Shown here piece by piece: positions 19,451-30,796 of a stretch of DNA of 64,000 bases (its first letter is position 1; every line of letters begins with the position of its first letter). Below the pieces are notes generated by a model, which saw only the letters and a list, made by a program, of their open reading frames with translations, did not search any database and was not told the DNA's origin. This stretch comes from Bacteroidota bacterium (GTDB taxonomy: Bacteria; Bacteroidota; Bacteroidia; Bacteroidales; UBA4417), in contig JAKLFM010000004.1 in the NCBI GenBank assembly GCA_022711175.1, positions 1 to 64,000 on the forward strand, written 5' to 3'. Position numbers and translations under genes: made by a program.

Positions 19451-19693
19451 AAAACCCGCCCAGGCTCTACAAGGGCGACATAACGGTCATATCCAGACTT
19501 GGTCGCCTGTCAAGCCCCGCAGGGGCGACATTATGGTCTCTTCCAGACTCGGTCGCCTGTCAAGCCCCGTAGGGGCGACATTATGGTCTCTTCCAGACTC
19601 GGTCGCCTGTCAAACCCCGTAGGGGCGACATTTTGGTCTCTTCCAGACTCGGTCGCCTGTCAAACCCCGTAGGGGCGACATTTTGGTCTCTCC
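19451..19693 (+). repeat. Tandem array A: five 50-bp units with a hairpin core
   Basis: Units start at 19451, 19501, 19551, 19601 and 19651, exactly 50 bases apart. The first is degenerate and the last is truncated. Each has a core containing GCCCCGTAGGGGCGACATT, where GCCCC and GGGGC pair around GTA, followed by a linker (CTCTTCCAGACTCGGTCGCC with a few more bases). Two units have ACCCC instead of GCCCC, breaking one pair. The core is the reverse complement of the core in array B. The linkers are near-identical, so this is not a CRISPR. Confidence 0.92.
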
Positions 19694-19733
19694 AAATAAC
19701 AATTGTTTACAAAGCTGATAATGGGCAAAACGT

Positions 19734-20201
19734 TCACAGATCATCATAAAACTCAAACAAATAGTCAACGTTATATTCCATATCAAATTTCTTTAGCAGA
19801 TCAAGATACTCGTCCCGGAAAGATCGCCTCTTGTGATGTTGTTCCTGGTTTTCAATATATCTGATAACTGTATTTCTTTGCGACTTTGCATAAGAAAATG
19901 CGGCATACCCTTCCTGCCATTCGAACCGACCTTTTATCAGGCTGTTTTCATTGATCCATTTCGATGAGTTTGATTTCACATCGCGCAGAATGTCAGATAA
20001 GGATTTTGTGGTTGACATCTCAAAGAAAATATGAACATGGTCTTTGTATCCATTGACAGCCAAAGGAAATTGTCCGAGATTTTTTAAGATTCCTGAAATG
20101 TATCTGAAGACGTCATGACGAATTTTATCGTTAAGCAGGTTTGCTCTGCCTTTTACCACGAAGACGGCGTGGATGTTTAGCTGTGTATAAGTGTTTGCCA
20201 T
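19734..20201 (-). CDS. REP-associated tyrosine transposase (IS200-like Y1 transposase, RAYT)
   Basis: A 155-residue HUH single-strand nuclease of the Y1 transposase family. The metal-binding HxH is H55-V-H57 (KDHVHIFFE), and the nucleophile is Y115 in RYIENQ with Q119, the usual YxxxQ arrangement. All catalytic residues are present and the frame is intact, so it is probably active. It has no partner tnpB. It lies between two arrays of short hairpins in opposite orientation, which is the classical RAYT/REP layout. Its ATG directly abuts the last core of array B. Its likely substrates are the hairpin cores on either side. Confidence 0.9.
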   Translation of the reverse strand: MANTYTQLNIHAVFVVKGRANLLNDKIRHDVFRYISGILKNLGQFPLAVNGYKDHVHIFFEMSTTKSLSDILRDVKSNSSKWINENSLIKGRFEWQEGYAAFSYAKSQRNTVIRYIENQEQHHKRRSFRDEYLDLLKKFDMEYNVDYLFEFYDDL

Positions 20202-20580
20202 ACCATAATGTCGCCCCTACGGGGCTAATAGAGTAGTTTCTTTGTTTATTACCATAATGTCGCCCCTACGGGGCTATTAGAGTAGTTTCTTTGTTTAACA
20301 CCATAATGTCGCCCCTACGGGGCTATTAGAGTAGTTTCTTTGTTTATTACCATAATGTCGCCCCTACGGGGCTAATAGAGTAGTTTCTTTGTTTATTACC
20401 ATAATGTCGCCCCTACGGGGCTAATAGAGTAGTTTCTTTGTTTAACACCATAATGTCGCCCCTACGGGGCTAATAGAGTAGTTTCTTTGTTTATTACCAT
20501 AATGTCGCCCCAACAGGGCTAATAGAGTAGTTTCTTTGTTTATTACCATAATGTCGCCCCTACGGGGCTTAGTTTCTATC
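20202..20580 (-). repeat. Tandem array B: eight 49-bp units with a hairpin core
   Basis: Units start at 20202, 20251, 20300, 20349, 20398, 20447, 20496 and 20545, exactly 49 bases apart; the last is shortened. On the plus strand each core holds ATGTCGCCCCTACGGGGC, with GCCCC and GGGGC pairing around TAC, and a linker TAATAGAGTAGTTTCTTTG plus a few bases. The seventh unit has CAACAGGGC in place of CTACGGGGC. Linkers vary only at two or three positions (TAATAG/TATTAG, TTTATT/TTTAAC). The core is the inverse of the array A core; the linker is unrelated to that of array A. The array occupies the 5' leader of the transposase gene. Confidence 0.93.
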
Positions 20581-30490: not shown

Positions 30491-30796
30491 ACGGGAGGCA
30501 AGTTATCAGAGCATTATAACCAAGCTATGTAGAATTTGAAACTTCATACTCCCACCACACTCAGAACCATTGCCATGAAATTTAGTACTAACTTATCAAA
30601 ATAGGTCAAATTTTCATATCATTATAATCCCTGCTGTCCGAAGTTTGTAACTTCGGACGCATTCAACCAAGTTTTACCGGATGCTTTCAACCAAGTTTTA
30701 CTCTGTTGTCTTATTATCCTTAGTTCGCTGCGTCTGCTTCTTCAATTGTGACATTCCCCGCCAATTCGCTATTTTTGCTATCCCAAGCCAGTCATC
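30491..30796. repeat. Intergenic region with a 10-bp-arm hairpin and a 24-bp tandem duplication
   Basis: A perfect hairpin lies at 30636-30658: GTCCGAAGTT, loop TGT, AACTTCGGAC. Overlapping its right end, a 24-base unit (containing TTCAACCAAGTTTTAC) occurs twice, at 30655-30678 and 30679-30702. The hairpin lacks a T-tract, so it is not a standard terminator. The pattern resembles solitary REP-like elements. The 3' part holds the promoter of the next operon. Confidence 0.6.
30746..30777 (+). promoter_or_regulatory. Promoter of the amidohydrolase operon (TTG-N21-TATTTTTG)
   Basis: TTG at 30746-30748, 21 bases, then TATTTTTG at 30770-30777. The ATG follows at 30797, leaving a leader of about 12 bases. 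Confidence 0.6.

Follow-up and report, generated by a model that had tools for sequence, protein, structure and literature searches.

In a genome of the Bacteroidota (order Bacteroidales, UBA4417), an intact transposase gene lies between two tandem arrays of small hairpins, which share one core in opposite orientations but are joined by unrelated linkers. This raises the question of how such arrays arose, and whether they belong with the enzyme that they flank. The locus lies in a 64,000-nucleotide stretch of contig JAKLFM010000004.1 (assembly GCA_022711175.1, positions 1 to 64,000), which is referred to here as the window. We consider, with a probability of about 0.72, that the locus is a unit resembling the REPtrons formed by repetitive extragenic palindromic (REP) sequences and their transposases, but with an enzyme of the IS200 branch, and that its hairpins would be moved or duplicated in trans and its end pairs would have been expanded in tandem. 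The evidence came from the window, from the genome around it and from homologous loci; the window genome and many of its relatives are draft metagenome assemblies.

Two hairpin arrays flank an intact transposase gene

Exactly two strong tandem arrays were found in the window with Tandem Repeats Finder (TRF), and they dominated its tandem repeats: array A (19473-19691, period 50, 94% matches) and array B (20201-20569, period 49, 95% matches). The five and eight units counted in an earlier note on this DNA were real; one hairpin of array A is decayed and one of array B is damaged (CCCCAACAGGGC). Array A lies downstream of the gene, and its leader and hairpin read 5' to 3' on the strand of the gene; array B lies upstream, and its first hairpin abuts the start codon. 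The core common to both arrays (ACCATAATGTCGCCCCTACGGGGCT) is about 25 bp long with its conserved 5' leader, rather than the 16 bp first described, and occurs on the minus strand in A and on the plus strand in B, i.e., as reverse complements. In contrast, the linkers were no more alike than shuffled sequences in either orientation (z = -0.1 and 0.3). This rules out the inversion of a single array and agrees with the earlier proposal of two separate amplifications of one core, each with flanking DNA of its own.

Across the 3.6-Mb genome, the exact 16-mer occurred 13 times and its reversed control did not occur. When up to three mismatches were allowed, matches to the core were nearly confined to the window locus and three further arrays (Table 1). 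This search gave no convincing solitary core in the genome: four scattered matches with three mismatches were at the chance level, and one match with two mismatches (C170) lacked the conserved leader. The prediction of many solitary cores therefore failed here, where only arrays were found, but it held in several relatives.

Table 1. Positions of the transposase gene and hairpin arrays (window coordinates, or contig of the same genome where named)
Feature	Position	Strand	Description
Y1/HUH transposase gene	19734..20201	minus	intact, 155 amino acids; DHVH ... YIENQEQHH, signature Y---Q--HH
Array A	19451..19692	minus	five hairpins, first (~19464) decayed; period 50 bp
Array B	20201..20569	plus	eight hairpins and seven linkers; period 49 bp
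Type copy of the hairpin element	20201..20226	plus	covariance model R1, 38.7 bits; leader TACCATAATGTC, stem GCCCC/GGGGC, loop TAC, 3' T
Further array	C157:69.4-69.8 kb		7-8 units, 51-52-bp spacing; transposase-free
Further array	C158:7.5-7.7 kb		25 bp, head to tail without linker
Further array	C158:11.4-11.8 kb		25 bp, head to tail without linker

The position of the first hairpin of array B directly at the start codon (window 20199-20226) could hinder translation of the transposase. In IS200, 5' hairpins hinder translation.

Class of the transposase

By its sequence, the window transposase belongs to the IS200 branch of the Y1 transposases, subclass 1.2. It matched the Pfam model Y1_Tnp (PF01797) over nearly the full protein length with 90.7 bits against a cut-off of 23, which places it in the Y1/HUH superfamily, and residues H55, H57, Y115 and Q119 were invariant across 31 aligned homologues. 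The protein passed the NCBIfam model for IS200 (NF033573; 69.1 bits, cut-off 55) and failed that for the REP-associated tyrosine transposases, or RAYTs (NF047646; 21 bits, cut-off 80). When a profile of the 31 relatives was compared with solved structures, it matched IS200/IS605-type TnpA proteins, of which 2xm3, which we take to be ISDra2 TnpA, was the best (E = 3e-14) and ISHp608 TnpA was also found (E = 2e-10); no REP-associated transposase was matched at E 0.1. The label RAYT, under which the gene had first been described, was therefore given up in its strict sense. The signature Y---Q--HH was present in 79 of 80 homologues and is that of TnpA_Y1 subclass 1.2, a group of Bacteroidetes and Cyanobacteria in which the end structures typical of IS200 are reported to be missing (Quentin et al., 2018; PMC6006769). 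With this signature, the passed IS200 model and two gene copies in the genome, the window protein falls within that subclass.

A hairpin partner across homologous loci

The survey covered 80 homologous loci from named genomes, and locus counts are given over 81 loci. The results indicated a common element, a strand-asymmetric hairpin composed of a 12-nt leader (TAYNANNATNNC), a covarying 5-bp stem, a 3-nt loop (mostly TAY) and a T. The leader consensus was T-A-Y-N-A-N-N-A-T-N-N-C, in which TA at positions -12/-11, A at -8, AT at -5/-4 and C at -1 were conserved across loci, as was the T after the stem. Accordingly, the foot of the hairpin reads T, N, N, C from -4 to -1 and not the canonical GT[AG]G of REPs. 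Positions -3 and -2 vary across loci, which speaks against GTCG as the guide tetranucleotide suggested earlier.

At least one element with a score of at least 5 occurred within 800 nt of the gene in 69 of the 81 loci, which came from Bacteroidota, Ignavibacteria, Poribacteria and others. Up to 600 nt from the gene, full-score elements had a density of 0.93 per kb, whereas 474 kb of the same loci farther out contained none. A first count of covariation was dropped because it was circular, the elements having been picked for pairing, and the scan, which had also required pairing, was repeated with selection on the leader only. A perfect 5-bp stem followed 119 of the 234 leader-only sites near genes, compared with 0 of 350 far from them. 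These stems comprised 22 different sequences, which indicates drift in the sequence of a hairpin that is itself retained.

The arrangement of the elements was also conserved. In 42 of the 48 loci scored on both sides, the nearest elements were inverted (-,+), with their leaders facing the gene. The spacing of same-strand neighbors peaked at 50-51 nt, with a minor class at 25 nt, and a pair at 47-54 nt was present in 43 of the 46 loci having any pair within 120 nt. Runs mostly contained one or two hairpins and reached at least four in 11 of the 81 loci, which makes long arrays the derived state. Arrays beside the transposase gene are therefore uncommon, as had been claimed, but they are not unique: tandem REPIN clusters adjoin RAYTs in P. 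fluorescens SBW25 (PMC3116915), and arrays as such are thus not new.

We also analyzed the co-occurrence of the hairpin and the gene in 247 class-level genomes, of which 73 had both, 54 the gene only, 10 the hairpin only and 110 neither (odds ratio 14.9, p = 4e-17, not corrected for phylogeny). The earlier view that the hairpins belong with the transposase was upheld. The hairpin had no match in Rfam, and no earlier report of this family was found in the open literature searched, subscription papers and supplementary files being outside the search. We consider these hairpins to be a candidate DNA partner of subclass 1.2 in most loci.

Copies without the gene

The genes on either side of the transposase-free array at 69.4 kb of C157 (7-8 units) were read as encoding a peroxiredoxin and a phosphatase of the PAP2 type. 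The sister species (G003) has these two genes as well, but with just 34-35 bp of unmatched DNA between them and no hairpin. Either the array was gained in trans in the window genome, or else it was lost in the sister species.

At E 0.1, the covariance model gave 81 matches on one complete chromosome of a Poribacterium and 43 matches in the genome of Flavobacterium chungbukense. The dispersed gene-less unit typically had four hairpins, i.e., two pairs with their leaders inward, and was compact (~180 bp) in Flavobacterium. Such inverted units, which agree with the definition of a REPIN as a dispersed unit of two inverted hairpins, were found in Flavobacterium and Poribacteria and not in the window genome. 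At one Flavobacterium site, the element was present in two relatives and missing in a third. By eye, the Flavobacterium copies had no outer inverted repeats.

The four-hairpin units of Poribacterium (L186-L192, chromosome OY282386.1) seem by eye to be parts of larger repeats, which carry inverted repeats such as TGTGTCAATTTAAGG on their outside, and they are possibly composites of two element types. Several of them having such repeats, their value as clean proof of mobility is weakened. A decayed subclass-1.2 gene with hairpins recurs at many contig ends in another genome (L156 960-1640; G007:C109). These multi-copy transposase fragments were rejected as proof of self-transposition, because the repeated unit includes a flanking fragment that by eye resembles an IS1380-type transposase, so that it looks like a case of hitchhiking.

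Origin of the two arrays and a proposed mechanism

A frequent arrangement among the loci was a hairpin pair with ~50-nt spacing at one or both flanks of the gene, with inverted orientation across it. The most plausible reading of the window arrays is that two such end pairs, one per side, grew by tandem expansion in this lineage. The enzyme could have driven this growth, as could slippage or unequal exchange between the paired hairpins. If the duplication ran from hairpin to hairpin, the period would equal the old pair spacing and the linker would be the DNA formerly inside that pair. Expansion of two end pairs would thus account, with no special assumptions, for a shared core in opposite orientations, for linkers that bear no relation to each other and for the periods of 49 and 50 bp.

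The sister species has an 82% identical protein, the same neighboring genes and arrays on both sides, with five left units (50 bp) and nine right units (46-47 bp). Its linkers were not significantly like those of the window, whereas the core was nearly unchanged, which suggests that the arrays turn over while the core and the approximate spacing persist. When the linkers of the sister left array were compared with those of the C157 array at 69 kb, the best z was 2.7, which loses significance once the many comparisons are taken into account. A segment of the linker of array A (GTCGCC) is the complement of one on the leader/stem side (GGCGAC; window 19490-19690), and in the sister left array (G003:C13:225590-225780) the corresponding letters have changed jointly to CTGCCG/CGGCAG, a hint that the left array has another, longer fold.

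As for the enzyme, the transposase would recognize the hairpin and its 5' leader on single-stranded DNA, would nick beside the hairpin, plausibly at the CT dinucleotides that bound the 25-nt element, and would move or duplicate hairpin units in trans. CT was found at 45% of the 5' edges and 71% of the 3' edges of the elements, against a background of 4.5%, and TnpA_REP cleaves at CT beside REPs (PMC8266576). Cuts at both CTs would release a unit of exactly 25 nt, which matches the repeat length in the two head-to-tail arrays of C158. In the window, cutting from one 3' edge to the next would give a unit of linker and hairpin of 49 or 50 nt, the period of arrays A and B. We infer that the hairpins are mobilized by the transposase through cleavage at the flanking CT. 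A bolder proposal, which we hold tentatively and with considerable doubt, is that subclass 1.2 runs a separate REP-type system that excises and joins 25-nt, C^T-bounded units on single-stranded DNA, builds arrays in steps of 25 or ~50 nt and seeds arrays in trans.

Comparison with known systems and alternative explanations

The locus would work like a REPtron, i.e., the TnpA_REP/RAYT genes and REP/REPIN sequences of E. coli, Pseudomonas and Stenotrophomonas. In both, a low-copy Y1/HUH gene lies between inverted hairpins that share a conserved 5' foot, gene-less copies are dispersed, and CT occurs at the element edges; here, the copies elsewhere comprise three further arrays in the window genome and dispersed copies in relatives. 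That this is a conventional RAYT system of the Proteobacteria type, merely situated in Bacteroidota, is nevertheless quite improbable. Strict membership in TnpA_REP (class 2) was rejected on the RAYT model score, on Y---Q--HH in place of Y---NP and on the absence of GT[AG]G at the foot, and the IS200 model and the nearest solved structures, ISHp608 TnpA included, point to the other branch. The hairpins differ as well: the foot is TAYNANNATNNC, the stem is short (5 bp) and free in sequence, same-strand pairs are ~50 nt apart, and the dispersed unit often has four hairpins rather than two; these units look like double REPINs. RAYT is therefore refuted as a strict family assignment and stands as a functional analogy.

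The position of the protein on the IS200 branch, together with the near-identical array units, which are typical of slippage or unequal crossing-over, could instead suggest an ordinary IS200-type insertion sequence whose end hairpins were multiplied by replication slippage and have no independent life. The closest solved transposase structures are indeed of the IS200/IS605 type (IS608, ISDra2), and those elements also have a hairpin with a 5' single-stranded, guide-like sequence. However, the ends of IS200/IS605 elements bear hairpins on the same strand of one mobile unit, whereas the leaders here lie on opposite strands (42 of 48 loci), and it is on account of this inversion that the locus is not an ordinary IS200 element. 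Moreover, the gene is low-copy, no multi-copy autonomous element was seen, no TnpB was noted at the window locus, and related arrays and gene-less four-hairpin copies occur at gene-free sites, with presence or absence differing between species; gene-less hairpin copies are common in relatives. We regard this explanation as unlikely. An action at the RNA level, in which the hairpins are terminators, mRNA stabilizers or a cis-regulator of the transposase gene instead of enzyme substrates, would suit their intergenic positions, often beside a stop or start codon, as in the first hairpin of array B. It is very improbable, however, given the lack of an Rfam match, the short stems without a U tract, the conserved single-stranded leader and pair spacing, neither of which is a terminator feature, and the tracking of the gene by the hairpin.

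Several observations count against the REPtron-like unit with an IS200-branch enzyme that we prefer. Of the 127 gene-bearing class-level genomes, 54 had no match to this hairpin covariance model, which is short, and ten class-level genomes had hairpins and no detected gene. Protein distances were correlated with leader distances (Mantel r = 0.49) and with stem distances (0.30), which fits the predicted recognition of leader and hairpin shape, but these correlations partly reflect shared ancestry. Some Poribacterium units have inverted repeats outside, some multi-copy cases are hitchhiking, and the decayed gene copy in G007/G011 adjoins a fragment read by eye as an IS1380-type transposase. The window genome shows arrays only, with no convincing dispersed solitary copy, and the leaders in the window lack the 5' CT and retain the 3' CT only. 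Homologous recombination or slippage could account for the arrays without any action of the enzyme, and the activity of the enzyme on the hairpins is deduced from sequence.

Other Y1 genes in the genome

A second subclass-1.2 gene (G000:C2:20400-21525; L037) is 46% identical to the first, carries YIEKQKQHH and has its own array, downstream and on one side only, with ~50-53-bp spacing and a different hairpin (AGCCCTACGGGCT). Two more Y1 genes (G000:C209:6200-7800, L039; G000:C142:30300-31400, L038) resemble subclass 2.6, which likewise comprises Bacteroidetes Y1 genes with atypical flanking hairpins but differs in its motif (Y[IL]HQNP) and hairpins; other, longer hairpin-like repeats lie near both genes. 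Every Y1 gene in this genome thus seems to have a hairpin type of its own. Elsewhere in the window, a two-copy 24-bp tandem repeat (CGGACGCATTCAACCAAGTTTTAC) was observed at 30654-30701.

Implications

The window transposase shares its signature, low copy number and occurrence in Bacteroidetes with subclass 1.2 as described (PMC6006769), whereas a conserved hairpin partner was found here in most loci. This offers a candidate DNA partner for a widespread transposase subclass formerly set apart for lacking recognizable insertion-sequence ends. The arrays are expanded copies of hairpins that flank little-studied transposase genes in Bacteroidota and neighboring phyla, which suggests an enzyme-plus-hairpin mobile system, and suggests that REP-type systems are not limited to the RAYT branch but extend to the IS200 branch. 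The covarying stems, the fixed leader and spacing, and the precise 25-nt and ~50-nt repeats make it possible to test directly, with short oligonucleotides, both how the hairpins would be recognized and how tandem REP arrays originate.
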